Source: an uncultured Pelagibacteraceae bacterium
Lineage (GTDB): Bacteria > Pseudomonadota > Alphaproteobacteria > Pelagibacterales > Pelagibacteraceae
Reading direction: 5' to 3'
Assembly: GCA_902622545.1 (NCBI GenBank)
Contig: CACNQD010000002.1
Coordinates: 124,001 to 188,000, forward strand
DNA length: 64,000 nucleotides
The notes under the pieces are model-generated. The model had not been told where the DNA came from. It was given only the letters and a program-made list of their open reading frames with translations, and made no database searches. Below are positions 2,731 to 35,477 of this stretch, piece by piece; the stretch's first letter is position 1, and each line of letters opens with the position of its first letter. Both the position numbers and the translations under genes were made by a program.

Positions 2731-3162
2731 TTAACAATCACTTGCTTTTTTTTCAGATATTGCTCCAAATTCATTCATCAATAATATGCATTTACCACCA
2801 ACTTCTTTTGCAACAACTTTAAACTTTGTCTTTGTATTATCTTGGTGAGTACAAAGCTCGTATCCCATTTCTTCATTTATAGAATCTGATCTTCCTAAAA
2901 GATTTTGTTCTATAGCATTTGAAGAATTTGTATTAGGACTACATTCTCCTGTTGACTGACTAGTGTAATAATACTGCCCGTTTTGGGACATATACTCAGA
3001 TTGACCTAGTGATACTTGCTGCATCACATTTCTCGCAGATTGTTTTTTTGTACCAGATATGTATCCTGAATATGCATTTATACCAAGTGTTGCAATGATA
3101 CCTAATATTGCAACAACTACTAAAAGCTCGATTAAAGAAAAACCGAGCTTATTAGTATTCAT
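2731..3162 (-). CDS. type IV pilin-like protein, four-cysteine
   Basis: A 143-aa prepilin with a short leader MNTNKLG followed by FSLIELLVVVAILGII. This is a class III signal: cleavage after Gly, Phe+1, Glu+5, then the hydrophobic helix used for assembly. The head domain has four cysteines (SPNT, YELC, GGKC and terminal ASDC regions), enough for two disulfides. It lies 15 bp downstream of a second pilin and upstream of a small membrane protein. It is substrate for PilD at 22024. Major versus minor status cannot be told from sequence. Confidence 0.9.
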   Translation of the reverse strand: MNTNKLGFSLIELLVVVAILGIIATLGINAYSGYISGTKKQSARNVMQQVSLGQSEYMSQNGQYYYTSQSTGECSPNTNSSNAIEQNLLGRSDSINEEMGYELCTHQDNTKTKFKVVAKEVGGKCILLMNEFGAISEKKASDC

Positions 3163-3177
3163 TAAAAAATTGAAATA

Positions 3178-3645
3178 TTATTCTATAGTAACTTTAGATT
3201 CGCCTGTTATATTTGAACCAGAGCAGGGTGTTACATAACAAGACTTAATAGTTATAACTTTACCGCTTCCGCTCACACTAACTTGACCTTCTGCATAGCC
3301 AGTTGAACTTGCTATTGCTTTCGCTGCTGTATTGTATGGGTTTTTATCAGTAGAGTTACCAACTAAAGCAGTAACTGCTGTTGTCGCTCCGTTGTTACCA
3401 TTAATTTGTCCACAGTTTGCGGTATTTGCTCCAAACGCTTTACCCGTGTTTCCTTCAAGAGTACATTTTTGTATCTCTGCTGAAACATACTTTAGTGTTT
3501 GTGCATGCATAGTTTTAACAGCATTCTTTTTTGCTGAAGCCGTATATCCATTGTAAGCAACCACACCAACTGCAGCCAAAATACCGATGATAGCTACAAC
3601 AACAAGTAGTTCTATAAGTGTAAAACCTTTTGAATTTTTTTTCAT
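3178..3645 (-). CDS. pilA: type IV pilin, candidate major pilin
   Basis: A 155-aa prepilin with leader MKKNSKG, cleavage before FTLIELLVVVAIIGIL and Glu at +5. The mature head is rich in Ala, Thr, Gly and Asn, with four cysteines, the last two in SCYVTPCSG. A strong ribosome-binding site (TTGAGGAG) precedes the ATG. Good translation signals and first position in the cluster fit the main structural subunit, but this is inference. Its first ~36 mature residues are nearly identical to those of the pilin at 20836-21381, while the heads are unrelated. Confidence 0.88.
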   Translation of the reverse strand: MKKNSKGFTLIELLVVVAIIGILAAVGVVAYNGYTASAKKNAVKTMHAQTLKYVSAEIQKCTLEGNTGKAFGANTANCGQINGNNGATTAVTALVGNSTDKNPYNTAAKAIASSTGYAEGQVSVSGSGKVITIKSCYVTPCSGSNITGESKVTIE

Positions 3646-3824: not shown

Positions 3825-4124
3825 ATGACATATAAAGTCTCAGAGGAAGGAAATATATCTACCGTTTTTTTAAATGGGGAAATAGATATGGACGTTGTTG
3901 ATAAGGCTAAAGAGCTAATTATGCCTTTAATCGAAGCCAAGAAAGAAGTTCATATAAATTTAAAAGATGTTCAGTACATGGACTCATCTGGAATATCGGT
4001 TCTAATTGAAAGTCACCAAAAAGCATTAGAAGTTGGAACTAAGGTTACCTTAAAAGAAATTAGTAAATCAGTTTTGAAAGTAATCATGATGGCTAAGCTA
4101 GAGCAAATTTTAAATTTAGACTAA
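3825..4124 (+). CDS. STAS-domain anti-sigma factor antagonist (RsbV/SpoIIAA-like)
   Basis: A 99-aa single STAS domain. In partner switching, the unphosphorylated form binds an RsbW-type kinase and frees that kinase's target; phosphorylation of one Ser switches it off. The signature YMDSSGISVL is present, with S54 at the position expected for the phosphorylated serine. It lies 9 bp upstream of an RsbW-like kinase gene and is divergent from the pilins, inside the pilus locus. Two candidate PP2C phosphatases that could reactivate it lie at 22951 and 33327. Neither target nor partner is proven. Confidence 0.9.
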   Translation: MTYKVSEEGNISTVFLNGEIDMDVVDKAKELIMPLIEAKKEVHINLKDVQYMDSSGISVLIESHQKALEVGTKVTLKEISKSVLKVIMMAKLEQILNLD

Positions 4125-4133
4125 ACAAATTAG

Positions 4134-4574
4134 ATGAACGAGACAAACAAAAGTGAAAATAAAATTTCCGAGACAAGAGAATTTATTGTTAATTCTGCAA
4201 GTTTAAAAGAAGTAAGATCTTTTTCAAGAGAGGTTTTTGAAAAAATTAAAATTGATCAAGACCTGAAAGACGAACTAGTTTTAGCAATTGCTGAAGCGGC
4301 TCAAAATATTGTTAAACATGCTTATAAGGATATTGAAACTAGCAATGATAAAATGGAAATAAAAATTTCATTAGGAAAAAATAATGAATTAGAAATTGGT
4401 TTTTTTGACAAAGGTAAACCAGTTGATGGTGCAAAAGTAAGACACAGAAATATTGATGATGTTAAACCAGGTGGATTAGGAACTTTTTTTATTCAACAAA
4501 TTATGGATGCAGTTGTTTTTAGAGAAGGTGAAAAACCTTGGATCAACCATTTAATTCTTACTAAACAATTATAA
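4134..4574 (+). CDS. RsbW-like anti-sigma factor / serine kinase
   Basis: A 146-aa GHKL-ATPase of the RsbW/SpoIIAB type. The N-box (AIAEAAQNIVKHAY) holds the catalytic Glu and Mg-binding Asn. FFDKGKPVD is the G1 box, and GGLGTFFIQQIMD is the G2 lid. These proteins phosphorylate the STAS partner and otherwise sequester a target, usually a sigma factor. It pairs with the STAS gene 9 bp upstream and ends 1 bp from the convergent pilC stop. No sigma factor gene is nearby, so the target is unknown and may not be a sigma factor. Confidence 0.88.
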   Translation: MNETNKSENKISETREFIVNSASLKEVRSFSREVFEKIKIDQDLKDELVLAIAEAAQNIVKHAYKDIETSNDKMEIKISLGKNNELEIGFFDKGKPVDGAKVRHRNIDDVKPGGLGTFFIQQIMDAVVFREGEKPWINHLILTKQL

Positions 4575-4575
4575 A

Positions 4576-5814
4576 TTATCCTACTATAGAACCAACATTG
4601 AATATTGGTGAGTACATCGCTATCATTAATCCACCGATCATCGTACCCATAAAAACAATCATGATCGGTTCAATTAAACTTGACATATTATCTACTGCAG
4701 AATCAAATTCTTCCTCGTAATAACTTGAAACAGAGGTAAACATTTCATCGAGATTACCAGTTTGTTCACCAACAGAAATTAATTGACTGAATGTAGGTGG
4801 AAACACTGGCTCTTTCAAAAATAGTTTGGTTAAAGTGTCTCCGGAGAAAACTCCTTTTTTAACATTTTCTAGAGCTTGAGTAACAACATCATTATTGCTA
4901 ACTTGTTTTGCAATTTCTATACTCTCTAAAAGGTTAACACCTGCTGCACTTAGATTTCCCATAATTAATGATATTCTTGCAATAAGAGATTTTAGTATCA
5001 TATCTCCAAATACTGGCATTTTTAAAACCTGTTGATGCCACTTATATCTTATTGCAGGAATCTTTGTTGTTGTATACTTAAATACAGCAAAACCGATCAC
5101 TAATATGATAAAAAGTGTTAAACCACCAGCGCCTCTCATAAAATTACTAGCATTCATAATTACCGCTGTAGGAGTTGGTAAGGCAACTCCCATTCCTTCA
5201 TACATTTTAGCAAAAACTGGAACTACTTTTATTAACATGAATACCATAACTGTTATAGCTACGGTGAACATAACTGTTGGGTATGTTAAAGCACCTTTTA
5301 TCTTCTTTTTAACCTTTTCTCTTTTTTCTAATGAATCTACTAATTTGAGTAAGAAAATATCTAATTTACCGCTGGCCTCTCCTGCTTTAATTAAGTTGAT
5401 ATAAATATTATCAAAAACTTTTGGATATTTTTCAAAGCACTTTGAAAGAGTTATACCACCCTCAAGACTTTTTCTAATATCTTCAATAATTTCTTTCATT
5501 GTTGGATGCTCAATTTGATCTCTTAGCATCGTAAGTACGTTCAAAATTGGAAGTCCTGCTTTAACCATTGTTGCAAATTGTTTTGAAAAGATTACTACAT
5601 CTGCAGGTGTAATTTTTTTCTTTCCAAATGAAAATCCAGAGCCTTTTTTCTTCTCTTTTTCAGCTTTTTTCTTTTTAGTTTTAACTAAATTGGTTATTAT
5701 TATTTTCTGCTCTTTAAGCTTAAACGAAGCTTCTTCTTGATTAAGAGCCTCAATATCTCCCTCAACGTATTTTCCAGCGGATATGCCTTTGTATGTAAAT
5801 GTTTCTGATGACAT
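4576..5814 (-). CDS. pilC: type IV pilus inner-membrane platform protein PilC
   Basis: Polytopic platform on which the PilB and PilT ATPases act. The 412-aa protein has the duplicated GspF/PilC domain. The first copy (about residues 70-190) includes FSKQFATMVKAGLPIL, the second starts near residue 275, and three transmembrane helices are visible. The C-terminal region SSLIEPIMIVFMG is typical of the family. It is last in the operon pilMN-O-P-Q-B-C. Its start codon shares one base with the pilB stop, implying coupled translation. Confidence 0.96.
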   Translation of the reverse strand: MSSETFTYKGISAGKYVEGDIEALNQEEASFKLKEQKIIITNLVKTKKKKAEKEKKKGSGFSFGKKKITPADVVIFSKQFATMVKAGLPILNVLTMLRDQIEHPTMKEIIEDIRKSLEGGITLSKCFEKYPKVFDNIYINLIKAGEASGKLDIFLLKLVDSLEKREKVKKKIKGALTYPTVMFTVAITVMVFMLIKVVPVFAKMYEGMGVALPTPTAVIMNASNFMRGAGGLTLFIILVIGFAVFKYTTTKIPAIRYKWHQQVLKMPVFGDMILKSLIARISLIMGNLSAAGVNLLESIEIAKQVSNNDVVTQALENVKKGVFSGDTLTKLFLKEPVFPPTFSQLISVGEQTGNLDEMFTSVSSYYEEEFDSAVDNMSSLIEPIMIVFMGTMIGGLMIAMYSPIFNVGSIVG

Positions 5815-7571
5815 TATTGATCTCCAGATATAACTCTATCAAATTCTCTAAAATTTAAATCACCAGTTAATATTAATTCTCTACCCATGTCTTGCATAGT
5901 TCTAAAACCTTCGTCTGTAGCAATTTTTTTGAGTTCTGGCGTTGTTGCTTTTCTTAAAATAGCTTCTTTAATAGGTTTAGTTACATTTAGAATTTCATAA
6001 ATACCCATTCTTCCTTTGTAACCTGTGTCTTTACATTTTGAGCATCCCTTTCCTCTTTGAACTTTTGCTCTCGAGGCTTGCTCAACTGTGAATCCAAAAT
6101 CTGCTAAAGCTTTTGGAGTAATGTCAGGGTCGGGTTCTCTACATTCCATACAAGTTTTTCTTGCAAGTCTTTGCGCTAACACAAGAGTAACTGCTGCACT
6201 AATTAAATAATCTGGTGTACCCATATTTTGTAACCTTGTAATGGTACTTGGTGCATCATTTGTGTGAAGTGTGCTAAAAACTAAGTGACCAGTAAGAGCA
6301 GCTTTCAAACCTATATCCACTGTTTCTTTATCTCTCATCTCACCAACTAAAATAATTTCAGGATCTTGTCTTAAAAAGGATCTAAGTGCTGTTGCAAAAC
6401 TAAAACCAATGTCCTCTTTAACTTGAACTTGTCCAACTCCATCTAATTCATACTCAACAGGATCCTCTGCTGTTAAAATATTAAGATGAGGTTTTGAAAC
6501 TTCTTTTAAAATAGAATAAAGAGTAGTAGTTTTTCCTGATCCAGTTGGACCTGTAACTAAAACTAATCCTTGAGTTCCATGAATTGCTTTTCTAAGATTT
6601 TTTAAATCTGTTTCCTCGAAATTTAATTGCTCAAGACTAATATCTCCTGCATCTTTATTTAAAATCCTCATTACAATTCTCTCATTATTTGCAGTAGGTA
6701 AAATTGATAAACGTAAGTCAACAACCTTACCATCAATCTTAAAAGGAATTGCTCCGTCCTGAGGAAGTCTTCTCTCTGCAATATCTAGTTTACCCATAAT
6801 TTTAAATCTAGTTACTACAGCTCCATAATTATCATGTAAAAATTTCGCGAATTTGTCTTGAGAAGCTAAAATTCCATCAAGTCGATATCTTACTCTTGAG
6901 GAAAATCTATAAGGCTCAATATGAATATCTGATACACCCATTTTAATTGCCTCTGCAACAACAGCCGTTGAAAATTTAATAACTTCAGATTCATTTTCTA
7001 TAGCTTCGATATCTTCTTCGGGTTTATTTTCTAATACTTCGCCTGCTTCAGCTAAATCAGAGTCAAATGTTTTAGTTCTATCTTTTCTAGCGTTTTCTTT
7101 TTTAATACTTTTTATTGTTGTTTCATTGCCTTCTAAAATTTTTTCTATATGTCTTGATATTTGAGTAATTTTTGCTGCATGTAATTCTATATCTTTTTTA
7201 GTTATAGTTTTTAAATTTCTCATTAAACTTAGTTTAGATATATCTGAAATAGCTATATGAAGAACCTTGCCTTCAATCTTGAAAGGGGCAATAAAATTCA
7301 TATTGATATAATTTGCAGGAAGTACAGTTTTTACTTCATCTGTAATTTCCATATTATCTAATTCAACAACATCTAAATTTTGATCTTTTACTAATAAATC
7401 TAAAATTTTGTCCTCATCAGTTAAATTTAAATCAAACACTGCTTCAAGTTGTGTTTTCTCTCCCTCAGAGGATAGTTTTTTAATATTTGGTAAATCTTTT
7501 CCTGATATAACGTCTTGATCTATTAAAACGTTGATCAAGTTAACCTCAGACTCTCTACTGATTTTTATCAT
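5814..7571 (-). CDS. pilB: type IV pilus extension ATPase PilB
   Basis: Hexameric cytoplasmic ATPase powering pilus extension. The 585-aa protein has an MshEN-type N-terminal domain (about 1-150) and the GspE core. It shows Walker A GPTGSGKTTTLY, the Asp box (ILTAEDPVEYELDGVGQ), Walker B (IILVGEMRD), the His box (GHLVFSTLHTNDA) and the zinc site with CMEC and CSKC pairs. The tetracysteine separates PilB/GspE from retraction ATPases. It lies between pilQ and pilC, 1 bp from pilQ. Confidence 0.97.
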   Translation of the reverse strand: MIKISRESEVNLINVLIDQDVISGKDLPNIKKLSSEGEKTQLEAVFDLNLTDEDKILDLLVKDQNLDVVELDNMEITDEVKTVLPANYINMNFIAPFKIEGKVLHIAISDISKLSLMRNLKTITKKDIELHAAKITQISRHIEKILEGNETTIKSIKKENARKDRTKTFDSDLAEAGEVLENKPEEDIEAIENESEVIKFSTAVVAEAIKMGVSDIHIEPYRFSSRVRYRLDGILASQDKFAKFLHDNYGAVVTRFKIMGKLDIAERRLPQDGAIPFKIDGKVVDLRLSILPTANNERIVMRILNKDAGDISLEQLNFEETDLKNLRKAIHGTQGLVLVTGPTGSGKTTTLYSILKEVSKPHLNILTAEDPVEYELDGVGQVQVKEDIGFSFATALRSFLRQDPEIILVGEMRDKETVDIGLKAALTGHLVFSTLHTNDAPSTITRLQNMGTPDYLISAAVTLVLAQRLARKTCMECREPDPDITPKALADFGFTVEQASRAKVQRGKGCSKCKDTGYKGRMGIYEILNVTKPIKEAILRKATTPELKKIATDEGFRTMQDMGRELILTGDLNFREFDRVISGDQ

Positions 7572-7572
7572 T

Positions 7573-9120
7573 TTATAATACCCTTGGTGCTATGAATACT
7601 AATAGCTCACTTAAGTCATCAGAGTTGGTAGAGCCTTTAAAGAGATTTCCAATTACAGGAACATCACCAAGCGCAGGAACTTTGTTAGTATTTTGATTTA
7701 CTGTGCTTTCTTTAATCCCACCAATCACTACGATATCACCATCTGCAACTAAAAGTCTTGTGTCAATTTCCATTTTACTTACCGGAGGTTCATCAGACTC
7801 TGATCCCTCTTTGACACTGTCATTGTTTACTTTAATAGTCATAAGCACGTTTCCATCACCTACTATACTTGGAGTAACTTCTAATTTCAATGCTGCTTCT
7901 TTAAACGATGTAGATGCAGCTCCATCTGATATGGTTGTATATGGTATTTCTGTACCTTGTGTGACTGTAGCTGTCTGATTATCTAAAGTGAAAATTTTGG
8001 GATTTGAGATTATTTGTCCTAAACCTAAATTCTCCAATGCATTAATTTCTGCTTTTAAAACACTAGTTGTTGTTCTTTTTAACACTCCAATTCCACTAGT
8101 GCCTGCAATTCCTGTATCGAGAATATCGCCTGTTGCGTTACCAAATCCACCAGCATCAACTGAAGTATCACCCTGTCCAGAGGGAGGATTGCCACCGCCT
8201 AATCCCCCAATTGTTGGCTCACCAGCTTTTGTACGATATGCACCAATTCTTGTTCCAAGAGCTCTTTCAAACTCAGAGGTAGCTGTTACAAGAAATGCTT
8301 CAATTAATACTTGTTTCGTTCTAACATCAATCTCCTTAATTACTTTATCAACCACATCTAAATCTTTCTCTTTACCTCTAATTATAATTGATCTGGTTGT
8401 TTGCTCCTCTGTTATTTGTATAGCTGAGAAAGAATTTTCGCCCTCACCTGAAGAAAATAATTCTGTTAGTGTTTCCTTGGCTTGAGCTGGTGAAATGTAA
8501 TATAGCCTGAAAATTTCTGAGTAAATTGGTTCAACACTATCTTCTAGCTCAACTTTTTTTCTAACTGCAGAGGCTCTTTCAGATTTATAAGTTTCTTGAG
8601 CTGTTAATGTCTCTGGAGAGTGAACTCTTATTAAATTACTGTTTACATCAATATCAGATGCATAATTTTTCATATCTAAAAGTGCTTGGAATGCTTTATC
8701 CCATGGCACGTTAATCAACTCTGCACTTATAGCGCCCGCAACTTCATCTCCAACAAGCACATTAATTTCTCCAATTTTACCCATAAGAGTCATAGTCTCT
8801 TTAAAATCTAAGTTTTTAAAGTTCAGGGTTACTCTTTGTTTAAGCAATGGAAAGTCTTCGGGAATTAAAAGATAGTTTCTTTGTGCTTCAGAAGATATTT
8901 TTTTTCTTTTTTGTAGTTTTATAATATCTCCTTCAACCGGTTTTGGGCCCATCTCTAAAGTTTTTTCTATCTCTGCTCTACCTGTGGCTTTAATATCTTT
9001 TTTTATAAGTGGGGTGTTGTGTTTAAAAGTTTTAATATTTTGTGGCTTTTTTGCACACCCCGAAACTATTAATAAAATTACTAAAAAAACTGTTGGGTAT
9101 AAAATTTTTCTAATATTCAT
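7573..9120 (-). CDS. pilQ: secretin PilQ/MshL, lipoprotein form
   Basis: Outer-membrane pore through which the pilus exits. The 515-aa protein starts with a lipoprotein signal ending in VSGC (lipobox). Secretin N-domains follow (LNFKNLDFKETMTLMG and the region around residues 200-275). The C-terminal secretin barrel carries VPALGDVPVIGNLF and ends LLVFIAPRVL. A Gly-rich loop at about residues 300-335 probably lies in the gate region. It is shorter than PilQ with AMIN domains and more like MshL. It overlaps the end of pilP by 11 nt. Confidence 0.94.
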   Translation of the reverse strand: MNIRKILYPTVFLVILLIVSGCAKKPQNIKTFKHNTPLIKKDIKATGRAEIEKTLEMGPKPVEGDIIKLQKRKKISSEAQRNYLLIPEDFPLLKQRVTLNFKNLDFKETMTLMGKIGEINVLVGDEVAGAISAELINVPWDKAFQALLDMKNYASDIDVNSNLIRVHSPETLTAQETYKSERASAVRKKVELEDSVEPIYSEIFRLYYISPAQAKETLTELFSSGEGENSFSAIQITEEQTTRSIIIRGKEKDLDVVDKVIKEIDVRTKQVLIEAFLVTATSEFERALGTRIGAYRTKAGEPTIGGLGGGNPPSGQGDTSVDAGGFGNATGDILDTGIAGTSGIGVLKRTTTSVLKAEINALENLGLGQIISNPKIFTLDNQTATVTQGTEIPYTTISDGAASTSFKEAALKLEVTPSIVGDGNVLMTIKVNNDSVKEGSESDEPPVSKMEIDTRLLVADGDIVVIGGIKESTVNQNTNKVPALGDVPVIGNLFKGSTNSDDLSELLVFIAPRVL

Positions 9121-9601
9121 TTACTTCCCGAATTTGGTTATTAAAGTCTATGATCATATAAGTTTTATCATTTTTTTCAAATATTGCTTCATTTATTCTC
9201 ATATCCACTAATTTAATTTCTCCTAAATACTGAGACAATGATAGAGTGATAACCTCTCCAGATGCATCAACTAAAGAAATATAACTATTTTCTTCACCAG
9301 AAATTATACCAACCAATTTAAAATTATATAAACTCATTTCATTTTCCTCTTCACCATCTGGTATATTGGACATACTAGAGCCAGACTCGTTTCCTGCAAA
9401 TGGATCATTCAAAGGAACTTCGTCTTCCTCATCTTCTGGTAATGTTGCTTGATCTGTTGGTGGTTGTTCAACTGTTTGATCTGTTTCTTGTTCTGTTACT
9501 TGTTCAGTTGTTTGCTCTTCAACACTTTCATGTTGATCAGCAAATGATACTTGCGAGTAGATTAAGATCAGAGTAATAAAAAAAATTTTAAAAAAATTCA
9601 T
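9110..9601 (-). CDS. pilP: PilP-like periplasmic alignment protein
   Basis: A 163-aa protein with a Sec signal peptide (cleavage likely after QVSFA), then an acidic Glu/Gln/Thr-rich linker (about 25-80). A small C-terminal beta domain follows (FKLVGIISGEENSYISLVDASG), the kind of HR domain by which PilP contacts the secretin. Family assignment rests on position between pilO and pilQ plus this architecture. No lipobox is visible, unlike many PilP lipoproteins. Its start overlaps pilO by 14 nt. Confidence 0.78.
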   Translation of the reverse strand: MNFFKIFFITLILIYSQVSFADQHESVEEQTTEQVTEQETDQTVEQPPTDQATLPEDEEDEVPLNDPFAGNESGSSMSNIPDGEEENEMSLYNFKLVGIISGEENSYISLVDASGEVITLSLSQYLGEIKLVDMRINEAIFEKNDKTYMIIDFNNQIREVNEY

Positions 9602-10241
9602 TAGGTAATCCTACTATTGTTAATTCTCCTTTTGCAACTATTGCACCGTTTGGGTCGTTTTGCACTAAACTTATAATTTCTTTATCAAAGTTCAACATTT
9701 TATTTGATCTTGCTAAAGCTCTTTTAAATTTTATATATCCAAGAAAGTTACCTTTTATTTCATAGGCAACTGGAATTTTGAAATATTTAACACTCTGGAT
9801 TTCTAGATTTTGGTCAGCCTGCTCAGTTGCTCCCTCTACTAGAACAGGTTTTGGTTTTTGTTTCTCTATTTTAGAAATTACTAATCCGTTTACGCCAGCA
9901 TATTTACTTAAACTATCGTATAGTCCTTCTACTTCAGCTTTGGTATGAAATAGTGATGAACTTTGCTCGAATTCTGGAGTTTTGTTTTTAATCTCTGATT
10001 TGAATTGAGTGATTTCATTACTCATTTGCATAATTTCATCTTGTTTTAGGACTTTATCGTTATACTTTTCCTTCTTTTCATTAACTATCGGACTTAATAT
10101 AGCGTAATAACCTATTAAAAAAATCAATATAGCCGCAAAACCTGAGCCAAACTTAATTAAAGTTTTTTTATCTACATTTTGTAACTTTGCTTTTAAATCT
10201 TCTATATTTATATTTTTTAAATCAATATTTTTTAAGTCCAT
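9588..10241 (-). CDS. pilO: PilO-like inner-membrane alignment protein
   Basis: A 217-aa bitopic protein: short cytoplasmic N-terminus, one transmembrane helix (about residues 33-52), a coiled-coil stretch (NEKKEKYNDKVLKQDEI) and a periplasmic ferredoxin-like domain. This is the classic PilO layout. I start it at the ATG at 10241 rather than 21 bp upstream, because that ATG overlaps the pilMN stop codon (TAATG), the usual coupling in this operon. PilO would pair with the PilN half of the upstream fusion. Confidence 0.85.
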   Translation of the reverse strand: MDLKNIDLKNINIEDLKAKLQNVDKKTLIKFGSGFAAILIFLIGYYAILSPIVNEKKEKYNDKVLKQDEIMQMSNEITQFKSEIKNKTPEFEQSSSLFHTKAEVEGLYDSLSKYAGVNGLVISKIEKQKPKPVLVEGATEQADQNLEIQSVKYFKIPVAYEIKGNFLGYIKFKRALARSNKMLNFDKEIISLVQNDPNGAIVAKGELTIVGLPNEFF

Positions 10242-11983
10242 TAAATGCTCTCCACGGTACAAGCAACTTTAAAACCTTTCATTTTAGGTTTAGTTGGGTC
10301 ATTACTCTCTGGTAAAGTCATACTAGCTAAAGATGCCTGAGATATTAGTTTTTTTTCATTTAAGTTACCAATTAGTTTTAATATATCTTGGTCTGTTGAT
10401 GCAACTCCGTTTATAATAACTTGATTTTGTCCATCGAAGTCTATTGAATTAAATTTAACTCTTTTTGGAACTGAGGATGCTATTTGAGCTAAAATTCTAA
10501 AACTTATTTTTTTATTTGACTCGATTGATCCACTTAATTCTAAAGATTTGTTAATAATTCCTAATTCTTTTGCAAATTTGGCTTTTTCTAAAGTCTTTAA
10601 CTGATGTTCAGAAATAATTTGATCATAGTCAGTTAATTTTTTGTTGAGAGAACTTATTTGCCAAAACGATAATCCAAAAAGAATTATGTATATTGCTCCT
10701 ACAACACCAACTACTCCCTTAAAAGCAAAATTTGAAAATATTTTTGCTTTTTTCTGTGCAATCATGCTGTCTCTGTTTGGTAATAAGTTGATATTTTTTA
10801 CAGCTGTTACAAATTTATAATAACCAAACACATCTAATTTTCTAAAAGCTAGCCCAATTACTGTCGAAAGATAAGATCTATTTGCAAGTTTAACACCTTC
10901 TGATAATTGAGCTGGAATTTTAACTTCAGAAATTGGATCAAATAAATTAAAACCAGTATTAGCTAAATTTTTTCTAAAACTTCCTAAATACGAATCTACA
11001 TTTGGTAAATTTGAGACTACTTTTAAATTTCTTATTCTTTTTTCATATTTTGTTTCAAAGTCTTGGATAGCTTGTTTTACTTGGGTCATATATCTTCTTA
11101 CCAAACCATCCATTTCCTCCTGATTGTCAGATTTCTGCAAAGTGGTTCTATCCTGACTTCTTATGAAAATGTCTGTAATAATTGGATTGTTTTCGTAAAG
11201 AATCATTACATAATTTTCATCTAAACCAAATTCTAAAACTGCAGTTAAATTACTTTCTTCAATTGAACCCTTAATTTGATTCATTTGGTCAACAGCAGAT
11301 TTTAAAGCAAAACATTTAACATCAATTATGACTGCATTTAGTCCACCTTTTTTAATAATTGATGTGTAACCATTAATATCTGACAATTTTGAAGCTACGA
11401 AAAGAATATCCATCGTATTCCTCTCTTTGTCTCTATTTATTACTTGGTGAAATATAGAATAATCATTTAAATTATCAGTTAATTGAACAAGATTTTCCCA
11501 TAAAGAATCTGTATCGATTGCTTTACCTAACTCTTCATCGGTCATTAGTGGAGCGGTTACAACTCTTATGATTGCACTAGTCACTGGTATTGCAATTGCA
11601 GCATTTGTAGTTTCTATTTTAGATTTTTGAAGAGCTATTTTAAGCTCATCTCCAATTTTATCCGGATGTTCTAAAACTGAAGCATTTTCTGGTAATCCTT
11701 CAATGGTATGTATAAAAAATTTTTCTAAAACCCACTCATTATTCTTATTATTATTTAATTGGGCTAGTCTTATTTCGTATGGCGTTAATTCTACACCTAC
11801 GATTTCCTCACCTTGTATAGCTTGTTTTCCTAATTTATTTTTTATACCAGAACTAAATTTAGATTTTATTTTTTCTATTAAAGAATTGATTTTTTTATTA
11901 CCTTTTTCCCCTTCATTTTTTTTTGGAGTAGCATCTGGATTGTTTTCTTTTTTTTTTAAAATATTTTGTAAGAAATTTTTCAT
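10241..11983 (-). CDS. pilMN: PilM-PilN fusion protein
   Basis: A 580-aa protein combining two T4P alignment subunits. Residues about 60-385 form an actin-like PilM domain (GVELTPYEIRLAQL, and ATP-site segment LTAVLEFGLDENYVMIL). Residues 390-580 are PilN: the NINLLP motif at 397-402, one transmembrane helix (about 421-440), a coiled coil and a periplasmic domain. In well-studied systems PilM binds the INLLP peptide of a separate PilN; here both are on one chain. A Lys-rich N-terminal extension (1-55) is extra. It is the first gene of the machine operon, divergent from pilT. Confidence 0.9.
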   Translation of the reverse strand: MKNFLQNILKKKENNPDATPKKNEGEKGNKKINSLIEKIKSKFSSGIKNKLGKQAIQGEEIVGVELTPYEIRLAQLNNNKNNEWVLEKFFIHTIEGLPENASVLEHPDKIGDELKIALQKSKIETTNAAIAIPVTSAIIRVVTAPLMTDEELGKAIDTDSLWENLVQLTDNLNDYSIFHQVINRDKERNTMDILFVASKLSDINGYTSIIKKGGLNAVIIDVKCFALKSAVDQMNQIKGSIEESNLTAVLEFGLDENYVMILYENNPIITDIFIRSQDRTTLQKSDNQEEMDGLVRRYMTQVKQAIQDFETKYEKRIRNLKVVSNLPNVDSYLGSFRKNLANTGFNLFDPISEVKIPAQLSEGVKLANRSYLSTVIGLAFRKLDVFGYYKFVTAVKNINLLPNRDSMIAQKKAKIFSNFAFKGVVGVVGAIYIILFGLSFWQISSLNKKLTDYDQIISEHQLKTLEKAKFAKELGIINKSLELSGSIESNKKISFRILAQIASSVPKRVKFNSIDFDGQNQVIINGVASTDQDILKLIGNLNEKKLISQASLASMTLPESNDPTKPKMKGFKVACTVESI

Positions 11984-12119: not shown

Positions 12120-13136
12120 ATGTTTGAAAAACTCGAGGATCTTGCAAAAAATAATAAAAAAATTTCTGATTTCCATATTAGAACTGGTTCACCACTTGCA
12201 TATCGTCAAACTGGTGAAATTGTAGTAGTTAAAGACGTCCCAATTAAAGCTCAAGATTTAAAAGATTTAATGTCAATGAATTGCAATGAAGTAGAAATTG
12301 AAAGATTTGATAAAACTCACGAGTTAGACTCTGCTGTTATGCTAAGTGGTTTAAGATTTAGAGCTAACTTTTACAAAACAATTAATGGAACCGCGGCAGT
12401 ACTTAGAAGAGTTGAAAGTCAAATTCCAAACATGGATCAATTTAATTTACCTCAGTCTTTATATGATGTAGTTGATTTTCATAAAGGGTTGGTGCTTGTT
12501 ACCGGTCCAACTGGATCTGGTAAGTCAACAACCTTAGCTGCTATCATAAATGAAATTAATAAAACAAGAAGTGCAAATATTATTACTGTTGAAGACCCTG
12601 TTGAATTTATACATAAAGATAATAGAAGTATAGTTTCTCATAGAGAAGTTGGTAAACAAACTAAAACATTCGCAGCAGCTCTTAAAGCAGCATTAAGAGA
12701 AGATCCCGATGTTATTTTAGTTGGAGAGATGAGAGATTTAGAGACTATCAGTTTAGCTCTGACTGCAGCCGAAACAGGTCACTTAGTTTTTGGAACTCTG
12801 CACACTAGTGGTGCACCTAGTACAATTAATAGAATTATAGATGTATTTCCGCCTGAACAACAAGAACAAATTAGAGCACAGATATCAACATCTTTAAAGA
12901 TGGTAATTACCCAAAGACTTCTTAAGACAAGAGATGGTGCTGGAAGAGTTGGTGCATTTGAAGTTATGAAATGTACATCTCCAATTCAAAACTTAATACG
13001 AGAGGCCAAAATACATCAAATACCAAGCATTATGCAGACTGCGGTAAGAGATGGCATGATTACTATGGAAAAATCTTTGGAAGAATTAGCAAAGTCAGGT
13101 AAGATAGATCCAGGTGCAGCAAGATCAGAACATTAA
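12120..13136 (+). CDS. pilT: type IV pilus retraction ATPase PilT
   Basis: Hexameric ATPase that depolymerises the pilus and powers retraction and twitching or DNA uptake. The 338-aa protein shows Walker A GPTGSGKSTTL, Asp box (IITVEDPVEFIH), Walker B (VILVGEMRD) and His box (GHLVFGTLHTSGA). The C-terminal SPIQNLIREAK corresponds to the AIRNLIRE retraction motif of PilT. The absence of a tetracysteine separates it from PilB. It heads a plus-strand operon with the minor pilins. Confidence 0.97.
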   Translation: MFEKLEDLAKNNKKISDFHIRTGSPLAYRQTGEIVVVKDVPIKAQDLKDLMSMNCNEVEIERFDKTHELDSAVMLSGLRFRANFYKTINGTAAVLRRVESQIPNMDQFNLPQSLYDVVDFHKGLVLVTGPTGSGKSTTLAAIINEINKTRSANIITVEDPVEFIHKDNRSIVSHREVGKQTKTFAAALKAALREDPDVILVGEMRDLETISLALTAAETGHLVFGTLHTSGAPSTINRIIDVFPPEQQEQIRAQISTSLKMVITQRLLKTRDGAGRVGAFEVMKCTSPIQNLIREAKIHQIPSIMQTAVRDGMITMEKSLEELAKSGKIDPGAARSEH

Positions 13137-22950: not shown

Positions 22951-24240
22951 ATGTTTTTTAAATCCAAAAAACAAGAAAAAAATGAAACAGATAAGAGTCT
23001 GCAAGTAAATGTAGATTTGGAGATTGTCACTAAAATGAATCAAGAGTTTGCGGTCTCTCTTGATTTAAATGACACCTTGAAGACTGCGCTACAAGTAATC
23101 ATTGCAAGAATTAATGCTGAGGCTGCAAATATATTTTTAATTAATGATAAAAAAAAAAAATTTGAATGTATTGCCTCATTGCATCAAAATTATCTTGATG
23201 AATATGAATTAGATTTAAAAGACGGAGTAATGGGTAAGGCTGTGCAAAGTAGAAAATGTGTGAGAGTGGGAAATGTTAGAAAGGATGTAAGAGAAATTGC
23301 AGAATTTTATTTTGATTTAGACAATAAAACAAATTTTACAACTTATTCAGTCTTATGCTCACCTCTTATAGCTGCAAACGATTGCATTGGTGTGATTCAT
23401 TGTTTAAACAAAAAAACTAACGATAAATTATTTATTGAAGATGATAGGAAATTATTAGAAACACTTTCTGCTCCTGCAGCTTTAGCGATTAGAAATGCTA
23501 AAATGGCTAAAGAGATGATTGAGAAAAATAAAATTCAAAAAGAAGTAGAAATAGTTGGAGAAATTCAAAGATCATTATTATCTCAAAATAAAAAGGAGGA
23601 TTTTCCAATAGCTGGAATAAACATTCCGGCTAAAGTTGTATCTGGAGATTTTTATAACTTTTCTGATCTTGGTGATGGTAGATATGGATTTGGAGTAGCT
23701 GATGTATCTGGAAAAGGAATTAAATCGTCTTTATTAATGTCTAAGGCATCTAGTCTTTATAGATGTTTAAGTAAAACAATGTTTTCAACATCGGAATTAT
23801 TAATGCTTCTTAATAACGAAATATGTGAAACAATTTCTAGAGGAATGTTTGTTACTATGTTGGTTGGTATTTACGACAGCAACAAAAAAGAATTAAAATT
23901 ATCAAGTGCAGGACATGAGCCACCATTAATTTTAAAAAAAGATGGAAGTTTTACCACATTCGAAGAGGCTGGGCCACCTCTTGGAATAATGGCTAAAACG
24001 AAATATAACGAAACTAAAATAGGATTTGATGAAAGCTCAATGTATATTTTCACAGATGGCATAACAGAAATTAAAGATCCAAAAGGTGAAATGTTGGGTT
24101 CAGACGGATTTAAAGATTATATAAAAAAATATCAAAAAAAACCAAATAATGAAAGACTGAAAATTATTATTGATGATATAATTAACTCAGGCAAAATTCA
24201 AAAAGATGATTTAACTATTTTAGTGGTTGATTCAAAATGA
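22951..24240 (+). CDS. GAF-PP2C (RsbU/SpoIIE-type) serine phosphatase
   Basis: A 429-aa cytoplasmic signalling protein. A GAF sensor domain spans about residues 30-190, followed by a short helical linker and a SpoIIE-type PP2C domain (about 200-428). PP2C metal motifs are SGDFYNF, GVADVSGKGIKSSLLMS, FTDGITE and DDLTILVVD. Such enzymes dephosphorylate a STAS partner, here plausibly the one at 3825-4124. It is divergent from pilD at the right edge of the pilus locus and overlaps the next gene by 4 nt. The GAF ligand is unknown. Confidence 0.92.
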   Translation: MFFKSKKQEKNETDKSLQVNVDLEIVTKMNQEFAVSLDLNDTLKTALQVIIARINAEAANIFLINDKKKKFECIASLHQNYLDEYELDLKDGVMGKAVQSRKCVRVGNVRKDVREIAEFYFDLDNKTNFTTYSVLCSPLIAANDCIGVIHCLNKKTNDKLFIEDDRKLLETLSAPAALAIRNAKMAKEMIEKNKIQKEVEIVGEIQRSLLSQNKKEDFPIAGINIPAKVVSGDFYNFSDLGDGRYGFGVADVSGKGIKSSLLMSKASSLYRCLSKTMFSTSELLMLLNNEICETISRGMFVTMLVGIYDSNKKELKLSSAGHEPPLILKKDGSFTTFEEAGPPLGIMAKTKYNETKIGFDESSMYIFTDGITEIKDPKGEMLGSDGFKDYIKKYQKKPNNERLKIIIDDIINSGKIQKDDLTILVVDSK

Positions 24241-24530
24241 CAAAAATAATTTTAACGATTGGTATTGTTATTGGCTTAATACTTCAATGGGCTACTACTA
24301 GTGTTTGTCGTTATAATTTTACAATAGATAAGAAAACTGAGGCTTTAAAAATTATTAGCGATGAAGTAAAACCAACTTTGGGCTATACTAATACTTATTA
24401 TTTTCATGAACTAAATTGCAATGATGCAAATTTTAGTTTCGACATAAATAGATTAGAGAAAAATATTAGAGCTATAACAGTTATGGTTTATCAAGAACTT
24501 ACCACTGACATCAAAGGTAATAAAAACTAG
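24237..24530 (+). CDS. membrane-anchored small protein coupled to the phosphatase
   Basis: A 97-aa protein with an N-terminal hydrophobic segment (about 4-22) that could be a signal anchor, then a soluble domain of about 70 residues with two cysteines. Family not recognised. Its ATG overlaps the stop of the GAF-PP2C gene (ATGA), so the two are translationally coupled. It ends 20 bp from the convergent alaS. A sensory or scaffold partner of the phosphatase is conceivable but unsupported. Confidence 0.7.
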   Translation: MTKIILTIGIVIGLILQWATTSVCRYNFTIDKKTEALKIISDEVKPTLGYTNTYYFHELNCNDANFSFDINRLEKNIRAITVMVYQELTTDIKGNKN

Positions 24531-31500: not shown

Positions 31501-31564
31501 TTCATTCAGTCTATCTATTGTAAAAGTTATCCACAACACAACAATATCTAGTTTCAATGTTCAC

Positions 31565-31586
31565 CTTTTGATTCACTTTTGATTCA
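31565..31586. repeat. tandem 11-bp repeat in the gfa/umuD gap
   Basis: CTTTTGATTCA occurs twice head to tail at 31565-31575 and 31576-31586, upstream of the umuDC promoter. It could be a regulator site or chance; no known motif is recognised. Confidence 0.5.
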
Positions 31587-31611
31587 ATTTCAGACTCAAA
31601 ATACAACCTAT

Positions 31612-33326: not shown

Positions 33327-35477
33327 TTATTTTCCGATAGCTAAAACAGTTAAGTCATCACTTAATTGATGGTTTTTAGCATTAGATTTTATTTCTTTAG
33401 CAATATCATTAAGTTCATCTTGCAAATCTTTATTAAAATTTTTATTAATAACCTCTTTAGAACCTTCAATACCAATCTCCTTATTATTTTTATCCAAGCT
33501 TTCTGATAAACCATCAGTAAAAGCGTAGAACCTATTTCCATTTAGATTAGATTTATTTATAAAATAATCATTTTTAGAGTTTTGTTTTACAACTCCTAAT
33601 GGAGGTGATTTGCTCTGAAACTCCTCAAAATTACCTTTTTCGTCTCTCAATAAAGCAGGTTGATGGCCAGCATTTACCCAACTTAATTCTCCACTTTTAA
33701 CATTATAATTTCCTATAATTGAGGTAACAAACATCCCGGCTGTTTTTGTTATGTGTAAATCATTATTCATGTGGAAAGTCATTTCATCAACGTCAACTTT
33801 ATCTCTCGACATTATTTCAAAGAGAGTGGAGGCTTTGGCCATAACCATTCCTGCATGAATCCCTTTTCCAGCTACGTCTGCAATAATGAAATAAACACTT
33901 TCATTGTGTGGATAAAAACTAAAAAAATCTCCAGAAACCTCTCTTGCAGCAATGTTGATACCATGCACAGGATAATTGTCTAGATTTCTTTTAGGAAGAA
34001 AGTTTTCTTGAACTTTTACTGCAAGTTTAACTTCATTTGTAATTCTATTTCTCCACTTTTGTTTTTCTATTTCACTAGTCTCTAGTTTGCTCATTAGTTT
34101 ATTATAATATAAACCTATCACACCCCCTGCAGTAAATGGATCTTGTGGTCCTCTAATAGTTAAATCTCCGCTCTCAGATTGTTTTTCTAAAATAGAGATT
34201 AAATCATGTTCTACTGAAGTTGCATTATGCTCTGCAATATTAAGACCTAACTCTTCTTGAATAGGGCTAACTCGTAAAGGATAAATTTTATTTAAAATTT
34301 TTAAGATAAAATAGGAACCTATGAAAGAAAATGCTCCTATTGAAATTATACCAATTAATTGTGCTTCTACTTGCTCAAGTCTGCTTAAACCAGTGCCTAG
34401 CAAATCTAAATCACTAAATAAACCAACGGCTAAAGTCCCCCAAACTCCAGCTGCTAAGTGAACTGGTATAGCTCCTACTACATCATCAATTTCATATTTG
34501 TGCAAAACTTCATTAACTACTATTGCAATTATAGAGCCAACTATTCCAACGAATATTGAAACAACGGATGACATTGAGTTGCATCCAGCAGTTATAGCAA
34601 CTAAACCTGCTAATGGTCCAAGAATAACATAATAAGGATCTGGTTTTTTAAATAAAGTAAAAGAAATACCAAGCCCTGTCAGTAACCCAAATGAGGCTGC
34701 TAAAAAGGTATTAATTAATATTAGTGGGACAGCTTCATCCATTGCGCCGTTACTTCCACCATTAAAACCAAACCAACCAAACCAAAGTATTAAAGTTCCC
34801 AATACTGCTAAAGGGAAACTAGAACCTGTAAACTTTCCTTTGTTTGCTTTTGAATACTTTCCTATTCTTGGTCCCAAAATCATAACAGCTGCAAGTGCCA
34901 TCCATCCACCAACTGAATGGACAATAGTACTACCAGCAAAATCGATAAAACCTATTTTACTTAACCACCCGCCTGTACTTATTTGGCCAGTTATCTCCAA
35001 CAATTGTCTTTCAGCATCCATATTACTAAGATAGCTTGAGGACCATGCCCAATGGCCTACAATTGGATAAATTATTCCAGTTGCTAATATTGTAATAATT
35101 ATGTAACCATTGAACTTCATTCTCTCTGCAACAGCACCTGAGATAATAGTTGCAGCAGTAGCAACAAACATTGCTTGAAACACAAAGTAAACCATATATT
35201 CAGCTATATCTGTCTTGAATAAAAATAAGTCTGTTCCAAACAATCCATTAAAGCTTTTTCCAAACATTAAACCAAATCCAAAGATCCAAAAAACTACAAC
35301 TGCTACACCAAAGTCAGCAGCATTTTTTAAAGCTACGTTAATGCTATTTTTATGTCGTGACAAACCAGTTTCCATACACATGAAGCCAGCTTGCATAATA
35401 AATACAAGAATGGCACAATCTATTACCCAAAGTGTATCTACGAAAGACTTTACTGAACCCAAATCAATATTCTCCAT
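33327..35477 (-). CDS. ammonium transporter-PP2C phosphatase fusion
   Basis: A 716-aa protein of two parts. Residues 1-400 form an Amt/Mep channel with about eleven helices and the conserved pore histidines H187 (IVHSVGG) and H340 (PVHLAAG). After a linker with the Amt-type tail motif EELGLNIAEHNA and a helical region (about 420-490) comes a SpoIIE/RsbU PP2C domain (about 490-716) with REVSGDFFSF, IADVAGKGIHAGM, FTDGLSES and DDLTVLAIG. This suggests ammonium-controlled dephosphorylation of a STAS protein. It is monocistronic, convergent with umuC. Channel fusions to histidine kinases are known; this output is less usual. Confidence 0.92.
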   Translation of the reverse strand: MENIDLGSVKSFVDTLWVIDCAILVFIMQAGFMCMETGLSRHKNSINVALKNAADFGVAVVVFWIFGFGLMFGKSFNGLFGTDLFLFKTDIAEYMVYFVFQAMFVATAATIISGAVAERMKFNGYIIITILATGIIYPIVGHWAWSSSYLSNMDAERQLLEITGQISTGGWLSKIGFIDFAGSTIVHSVGGWMALAAVMILGPRIGKYSKANKGKFTGSSFPLAVLGTLILWFGWFGFNGGSNGAMDEAVPLILINTFLAASFGLLTGLGISFTLFKKPDPYYVILGPLAGLVAITAGCNSMSSVVSIFVGIVGSIIAIVVNEVLHKYEIDDVVGAIPVHLAAGVWGTLAVGLFSDLDLLGTGLSRLEQVEAQLIGIISIGAFSFIGSYFILKILNKIYPLRVSPIQEELGLNIAEHNATSVEHDLISILEKQSESGDLTIRGPQDPFTAGGVIGLYYNKLMSKLETSEIEKQKWRNRITNEVKLAVKVQENFLPKRNLDNYPVHGINIAAREVSGDFFSFYPHNESVYFIIADVAGKGIHAGMVMAKASTLFEIMSRDKVDVDEMTFHMNNDLHITKTAGMFVTSIIGNYNVKSGELSWVNAGHQPALLRDEKGNFEEFQSKSPPLGVVKQNSKNDYFINKSNLNGNRFYAFTDGLSESLDKNNKEIGIEGSKEVINKNFNKDLQDELNDIAKEIKSNAKNHQLSDDLTVLAIGK

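Follow-up and report, generated by a model that had tools for sequence, protein, structure and literature searches.

How do SAR11 cells gauge ammonium? The question arises for an uncultured Pelagibacteraceae bacterium (assembly GCA_902622545.1, a genome of 1.15 Mb and 97.7% completeness) because no P-II regulator was found there: a search with PF00543 returned zero matches at E 0.001, and 13 of 14 controls were positive. A candidate answer is encoded on contig CACNQD010000002.1, in the 64,000-nucleotide stretch (positions 124,001 to 188,000, forward strand) that we call the window, where a single reading frame joins an Amt domain of the ammonium transporter family to a SpoIIE/RsbU-type PP2C phosphatase domain. 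From its sequence and that of its relatives, we consider it likely that this Amt-PP2C fusion is an ammonium receptor-phosphatase that feeds a partner switch linked to the type IV pilus. A first-pass annotation had described the fusion as belonging to an ocean bacterium, a setting with which the SAR11-type genome and the missing P-II agree. The fusion is laid out as follows, in window coordinates:

33327 to 35477, minus strand: Amt-PP2C fusion, 716 amino acids (aa), with Amt at residues 17-420, the linker at about 421-525 and the SpoIIE/RsbU-type PP2C at 526-714.
34218 to 35429, minus strand: Amt domain, residues 17-420, assigned to the receptor type from Pfam, the mapping to Ks-Amt5, a residue table and trees.
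33903 to 34217, minus strand: linker, residues 421-525, aligning with Sd-Amt1 as far as residue 466.
33336 to 33902, minus strand: PP2C (SpoIIE) domain, placed by Pfam at residues 526-714, with D517 just before it.

The frame begins with ATG and, by open reading frame analysis, contains zero internal stops. Residues 17-420 match the Pfam family Ammonium_transp (PF00909) at E 2e-111, spanning positions 2-397 of the 399 in the model, and residues 526-714 match SpoIIE (PF07228) at E 6e-34, with 118 bits against a cut-off of 25. Pfam found no HisKA or HATPase_c domain in the fusion, the domains that mark Amt sensor histidine kinases. TIGR00836, 'ammonium transporter', is the one NCBIfam model that the protein passes, a label that would leave the phosphatase half unnamed. 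The same genome carries a second, diverged Amt-PP2C fusion of 745 aa on a different contig, as well as a plain Amt of 437 aa, its third and last Amt gene. A scan of genome contigs with a linker-PP2C alignment as query, from which the best 80 of 414 relatives were kept (all titled Pelagibacteraceae), recovered a full-length fusion frame in 77 of 80 loci, and the other three (L108, L130, L140) are partial frames that abut contig ends. An assembly artefact, one of the objections foreseen in the first-pass annotation, was therefore rejected on the strength of the diverged copy on another contig and of these full frames. Thus, the Amt-PP2C fusion in this SAR11 genome is real. In four comparisons, three of which have a synonymous rate (dS) above 1, the ratio of nonsynonymous to synonymous rates (dN/dS) was 0.00-0.03 for the linker, 0.04-0.06 for Amt and 0.03-0.11 for PP2C. 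Purifying selection acts on Amt, linker and PP2C alike, and because the linker is the most constrained of them in each of the four comparisons, the join between Amt and PP2C is itself under selection. A scan for promoters and terminators gave no excess over shuffled sequence (18 against 27.2, and 2 against 1.8, respectively).

Is the Amt half a channel or a receptor? Its nearest PDB chains are 8qj3, 8qj4 and 8qpf (E 1e-118), matched over residues 10-466 and so including part of the linker; 6eu6 follows at E 8e-85, and AfAmt1 (2e-45) and AmtB (8e-29) are far weaker. The titles of the PDB entries read 'Receptor Sd-Amt1 ON/OFF-state', 'Amt1 of Shewanella denitrificans' and 'Sensor Amt Protein'. 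A predicted model of the protein has the Amt fold, with Z scores of 35.1-37.8 to its five best Amt structures. In Ks-Amt5 of Kuenenia (6eu6), the ligands of two ammonium ions are Q24, E31, N47, D50, T51, T109 and T112 (PMC5764959; this and the other papers cited by PMC number are represented here by portions of their text). These ligands map onto Q29, E36, N52, D55, F56, T110 and S113 of the fusion, five of the seven being identical. We tabulated the pocket in 75 aligned Amt rows, comprising 42 SAR11 fusions, 21 other fused Amts and 12 unfused ones; these are counts of rows rather than genes, since one gene occurs twice among the SAR11 fusions and one twice among the other fused rows, and six SAR11 fusion rows are cut by locus ends. 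The residues Q-E-N-D-T-S at 29, 36, 52, 55, 110 and 113 are present in all 42 SAR11 fusion rows, and the receptor pocket recurs in 18 of the 21 other fused rows (the exceptions being L056, L058 and L065, the last of them cut). The unfused rows read A-E-N-L-S-S in eight of 12, including the genome's own third Amt, with the receptor set in three and neither set in one.

A tree of 48 Amt domains places the PP2C fusions in a single clade (100/100). Fused and plain Amts split across one branch (91/88), with the PP2C fusions on the fused side, next to kinase- and GGDEF-fused Amts, and the genome's third Amt among the plain ones. Eight transporter-type Amts sit on a long branch (100/100), and three unfused Amts with the receptor pocket lie beside them. 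In a further, quickly built tree of 62 rows the PP2C clade again groups with kinase and GGDEF fusions (92), the nearest being GGDEF at weak support (85). Both trees contain long branches and gave long-branch warnings. The genome's plain Amt scores above the cut-off of TIGR03644. Taken at the level of sequence, these data favour a receptor over a channel as the reading of the Amt half. The first-pass annotation had called it a full Amt channel, which its twin histidines do not prove, as Ks-Amt5 illustrates (PMC5764959), and receptor Amts match it far better.

The PP2C half has conserved catalytic residues. The first-pass annotation had reported its metal-binding motifs, and the five aspartates D517, D534, D655, D707 and D708 are invariant in 98 of 98 aligned rows, of which one is the window fusion, 96 are further fusion frames and the last is L163, which has a PP2C but no Amt match. 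Profile searches matched the domain to RssB, SpoIIE and other serine phosphatases, and fold neighbours of its model are the RsbU, RssB, SiaA and SpoIIE structures (Z 14-17). The linker between the halves, residues 421-525, gave zero Pfam matches up to E 5, and a HAMP domain there was rejected on the same result; HAMP matches occur in the relatives L094, L097, L199, L207 and L208, at or below the cut-off except for one above it.

What would such a phosphatase act on? The genome holds three SpoIIE proteins, the two Amt-PP2C fusions and one GAF-PP2C, together with the parts of an Rsb-type partner switch, namely a STAS protein with phosphorylatable serines and a HATPase_c_2 kinase. The two switch genes lie in the window, inside a type IV pilus locus, and are listed here with their neighbours and GAF-PP2C:

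2731 to 3645, minus strand: two pilin-like genes (N_methyl, by Pfam).
3825 to 4124, plus strand: STAS protein of the RsbV/SpoIIAA type, 99 aa, with a DSSG motif holding Ser54 and Ser55; the genome's sole PF01740 match and the likely substrate.
4134 to 4574, plus strand: RsbW-type serine kinase (HATPase_c_2), 146 aa; the genome's sole PF13581 match at E 0.001.
4576 to 9120, minus strand: PilC (T2SSF), PilB (T2SSE with MshEN) and PilQ (secretin), by Pfam.
9110 to 11983, minus strand: PilP, PilO and PilM/N-like genes, named by reading and gene order, not by Pfam.
12120 to 13136, plus strand: PilT-like ATPase (T2SSE), by Pfam.
22951 to 24240, plus strand: GAF-PP2C (SpoIIE) phosphatase, 429 aa, a likely second input to the switch.

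The STAS and kinase genes are adjacent, between the pilin genes and pilC. The names PilMNOP, PilD and PilY1 were assigned by reading. Residues D53-S54-S55-G56 of the STAS protein are identical in 47 of 47 rows, and the kinase and STAS protein find their best matches in RsbW/SpoIIAB and RsbV/SpoIIAA models and structures, respectively, with scores below the equivalog cut-offs. Three further features of the window were recorded. PilB (5814-7571, minus strand) bears an MshEN domain, which elsewhere binds cyclic di-GMP (c-di-GMP). A 97-aa open reading frame at 24237-24530 (plus strand) overlaps the end of GAF-PP2C; it has no Pfam match, and similar frames occur in L032, L035 and L045. At 31519-31608 (minus strand), the Rfam small RNA SAR11_0636 (89 bits) lies upstream of two tandem genes with GFA domains.

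The fusion of the window adjoins umuDC, away from the pilus locus. We compared the stretches of 14 relatives, labelling genes by their similarity to window proteins, and found at least one fusion copy in the pilus locus beside the STAS and kinase genes in 11 of the 12 that bear a fusion; in the twelfth, G084, the fusion adjoins umuDC, as in the window. The available flanks of the 80 loci kept from the contig scan include umuC in 23, and the kinase, STAS and PilC genes in 44 each. Relatives have other PP2C proteins: Pfam identifies CHASE2-PP2C in L033, L041 and L042, L040 has a receiver-PP2C, and frames of 683-684 aa in L046 and L047 resemble them in size, place and PP2C similarity. In L033, L046 and L047 the gene is within or close to the pilus locus, in L040 it is among pilin genes, and in L041 it is elsewhere. 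Near the pilus locus, a stretch of L033 (999-4363, plus strand) has the CHASE2-PP2C beside a secreted, very lysine-rich protein with a FecR match, and a stretch of L046 (12559-15964, plus strand) has the CHASE2-PP2C-like frame likewise beside a secreted, very lysine-rich protein. Two STAS genes adjoin the kinase in L029 (9491-10071, plus strand; both DSSG) and L032 (14555-15135, minus strand), where the window has one.

The co-occurrence of these genes was counted in 297 genomes drawn from this order, which we take to be Pelagibacterales, with up to three fusion candidates scored per genome. The fusion is present in 58, a count that includes G056, whose piece is truncated at the end of a contig, and G174, where it covers residues 67-716 with one stop. 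The kinase was found in 87 genomes (at E 1e-13 or better), SpoIIE in 96 and PilC in 102. At E 0.001 the kinase count would be 173, the next best match after the 1e-13 set being E 1.8e-7; these weak matches were left out, and those listed fall in frames of 317-599 aa. Every one of the 87 kinase genomes also has SpoIIE and PilC, and the kinase is present in 55 of the 58 fusion genomes. We measured the distance from the kinase to the nearest fusion copy in 51 genomes, leaving out G056, G230, G248 and G293, which have both genes, and it is under 5 kb in 45 of them. Coordinates of the kinase and PilC matches were compared in 58 of the 87 kinase genomes, and in 53 of these a PilC match lies less than 1 kb from the kinase. 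The link to partner switching that the first-pass annotation had proposed thus gains from the single STAS protein, the single adjacent kinase and the frequency with which that kinase accompanies the fusion.

Several observations weigh against this picture and should be read beside it. In the pocket, T112 and T51 of Ks-Amt5 are replaced by S113 and F56, although Sd-Amt1 also has F and S at the aligned positions. The unfused Amts of L064, L066 and L069 carry the receptor pocket and fall with the plain Amts in the 48-domain tree, and in the 62-row tree five fusions to methyl-accepting chemotaxis protein (MCP) domains and a single GGDEF fusion are placed with the plain Amts as well; neither receptor pocket nor fusion alone sorts Amts cleanly. 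The full-length structure model is poor (mean pLDDT 59) and served only to list fold neighbours. Three fusion genomes, G174, G231 and G238 (90, 87 and 87% complete), have no kinase or PilC match, nine SpoIIE genomes are without the kinase, as are 15 of 102 PilC genomes, and in the window genome and five others 10-29 kb separate the fusion and the switch. Since the genomes are related and the island is co-inherited, Fisher values for the co-occurrence overstate independence, and the counts ignore shared ancestry. Finally, it is the location of the switch genes that points to the pilus as their target.

The Amt receptors and PP2C phosphatases already described suggest how the fusion could work. 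Sd-Amt1 of Shewanella denitrificans (8qj3, 8qj4, 8qpf) has the same pocket residues, and its match runs into the linker of the fusion. The Sd-Amt1 transducer is a diguanylate cyclase, whereas the output here is a PP2C phosphatase. Ks-Amt5 is likewise an Amt receptor with a cytoplasmic transducer and shares the five identical ammonium ligands (PMC5764959), but its output is a histidine kinase and its T51 and T112 correspond to F56 and S113. The RsbU and SpoIIE phosphatases have the SpoIIE domain and invariant aspartates in common with the fusion, together with a STAS protein and an RsbW-type kinase encoded in one genome and usually at one locus; they differ from it in their input, which here is a whole Amt receptor. 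SiaA of Pseudomonas is a membrane sensor joined to PP2C. Its PP2C (6k4e) has a like fold (Z 15.3), but its sensor domain differs, and the fusion matches the SiaA family NF038263 weakly (22 of 700 bits, far under the cut-off). AmtB-GlnK shares the Amt fold; its P-II regulator is the one that the PF00543 search did not find in this genome. We know of no ammonium receptor in the HmpU/HmpV/HmpW system of Nostoc punctiforme. That system is likewise a partner switch, in which a STAS protein is the proposed output and which is tied to hormogonium development and motility (PMC6495340, PMC8256260).

Drawing the binding and linker-coupling steps from Ks-Amt5 and Sd-Amt1, we propose that the Amt half would bind ammonium in an intramembrane pocket of the Ks-Amt5 type, uptake not being its main role, and that binding would change the Amt trimer and, through a helical linker, alter the activity of the cytoplasmic PP2C in one direction or the other. 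As SpoIIE and RsbU do (PMC11418112), the PP2C would then strip from the STAS protein the phosphate placed on Ser54 or Ser55 by the RsbW-type kinase. The STAS protein and kinase would switch partners and so may control a target associated with the type IV pilus, while GAF-PP2C, and CHASE2-PP2C and receiver-PP2C in relatives, could feed other signals into the same switch.

This proposal has to be set against other readings of the same genes. The Amt half might still transport ammonium, with the PP2C reading transport activity, which is close to the transceptor of the first-pass annotation. The pore histidines reported there, H187 and H340, are indeed intact and invariant in 14 of 14 aligned fusions, the Phe gate F104 and W143 are conserved among fusions, and two of the three bulky residues that block the pore of Ks-Amt5, Y30 and F34, are M35 and L39 here. 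Nevertheless, Ks-Amt5 itself has intact twin histidines and does not efficiently translocate ammonium (PMC5764959). The Amt half has a receptor pocket, lacking in the genome's own plain Amt, and a place in the tree with kinase- and GGDEF-fused Amts, and the genome has that plain Amt as a separate gene. We therefore think transport-reading improbable and would not keep the word transceptor. A relic, in which the fusion is decayed or silent and kept by chance in a variable pilus island, is a reading to which we give hardly any credence: the island is patchy among genomes, and of the tandem pair of fusions in HTCC1062 a related strain, HTCC1002, has only one (PMC2217521), but selection is purifying on Amt, linker and PP2C, catalytic and pocket residues are invariant, and two paralogues are retained in this genome.

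The remaining alternatives concern the output. The switch might be a classical anti-sigma one, in which the kinase sequesters a sigma factor that the STAS protein frees, so that transcription would change under ammonium stress, the pilus being a mere neighbour. The best matches of both proteins to RsbW/SpoIIAB and RsbV/SpoIIAA, below equivalog cut-offs as they are, would fit this. We regard it as possible but unlikely, given that none of the 87 kinase genomes is without the pilus locus and that only sigma-32 and a sigma-70 are stated for HTCC1062 in the portion of PMC13198564 used here, which makes a non-sigma target plausible. A further reading, that the PP2C is a general phosphatase for many Ser/Thr phosphoproteins of SAR11 rather than for a STAS protein, draws on the 2025 SAR11 phosphoproteome, in which 1014 Ser/Thr/Tyr sites are reported for 555 proteins, RsbW is the single Ser/Thr kinase, and none of the annotated phosphatases is predicted to have protein substrates (PMC13198564). 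We judge it quite improbable: the domain is of the SpoIIE/RsbU type, members of which act on STAS proteins (PMC11418112), and the PP2C genes lie beside the STAS and kinase genes in most genomes compared, with SpoIIE present in all 87 kinase genomes.

The ammonium receptor-phosphatase that we favour would also bear on the model strain HTCC1062, which G011 most likely represents, its gene order fitting SAR11_0048 to SAR11_0054 (PMC2217521). There the fusions are SAR11_0049 and SAR11_0050, both listed as 'ammonium transporter', one of the two being missing in HTCC1002, and SAR11_1218 is listed as a phosphatase and sigB regulator (PMC2217521). The phosphoproteome of this strain names RsbW (SAR11_0057) as its sole Ser/Thr kinase, predicts none of six annotated phosphatases to act on proteins, and draws the conclusion that the strain has no known protein phosphatases (PMC13198564, in the portion used). 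If G011 is HTCC1062, its four SpoIIE matches argue against that conclusion. Beside the fusion paralogue, and between the copies in tandem loci, lies a gene for a small secreted CxxC protein (L002, 2821-3153, minus strand; L029, 7575-7904, minus strand), which by gene order is SAR11_0051, 'metal ion transporter'; the L029 copy has no Pfam match at E 0.001. In the open-licence literature we found no paper naming an Amt-SpoIIE or Amt-PP2C protein, and the words phosphatase, fused and sensor are absent from the portion used of PMC9277239, on Amt charge in marine organisms.

How widely is this architecture spread? The first-pass annotation had asked for it across Pelagibacterales and beyond, and the 58 of 297 genomes above answer the first part. 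Outside the order, we searched 398 genomes of the same phylum (taken as Pseudomonadota) and 385 of the same class (taken as Alphaproteobacteria), draws that overlap slightly and include relatives, scoring up to two candidates per genome; the phylum matches are those listed. Among these, 48 fused C-termini were scanned, of which 26 are histidine kinases, 16 GGDEF-EAL, five MCP and one PAS only (L086); none of the 48 is SpoIIE or PP2C. L211, a stop-broken frame, and L212, an unfused Amt of 433 aa, were left out of the scan. Class-draw matches that reach residue 565 and at first looked like PP2C fusions proved by Pfam to be kinases. Two sets of Amts from other genomes of the phylum deserve mention: L093, L096, L207, L208 and L209 join a receptor-type Amt to MCP signalling domains and are candidate ammonium chemoreceptors, and the unfused receptor-pocket Amts of L064, L066 and L069 have frames of 445-457 aa.

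As far as we have searched, a PP2C output is new for the receptor-Amt module, so that one receptor module is joined to four kinds of output: kinases, c-di-GMP enzymes, chemotaxis proteins and a phosphatase. For SAR11, the fusion is a concrete candidate ammonium receptor, with conserved pocket and catalytic residues and a likely substrate. A broader proposal, which we offer tentatively, is that SAR11 cells lacking P-II may sense external ammonium through receptor-phosphatases gating a partner switch that is part of the type IV pilus machine. Ammonium might then directly control the building or retraction of pili, and with it contact or the uptake of DNA or particles, and the PP2C proteins could be the phosphatases reported missing from the model strain.

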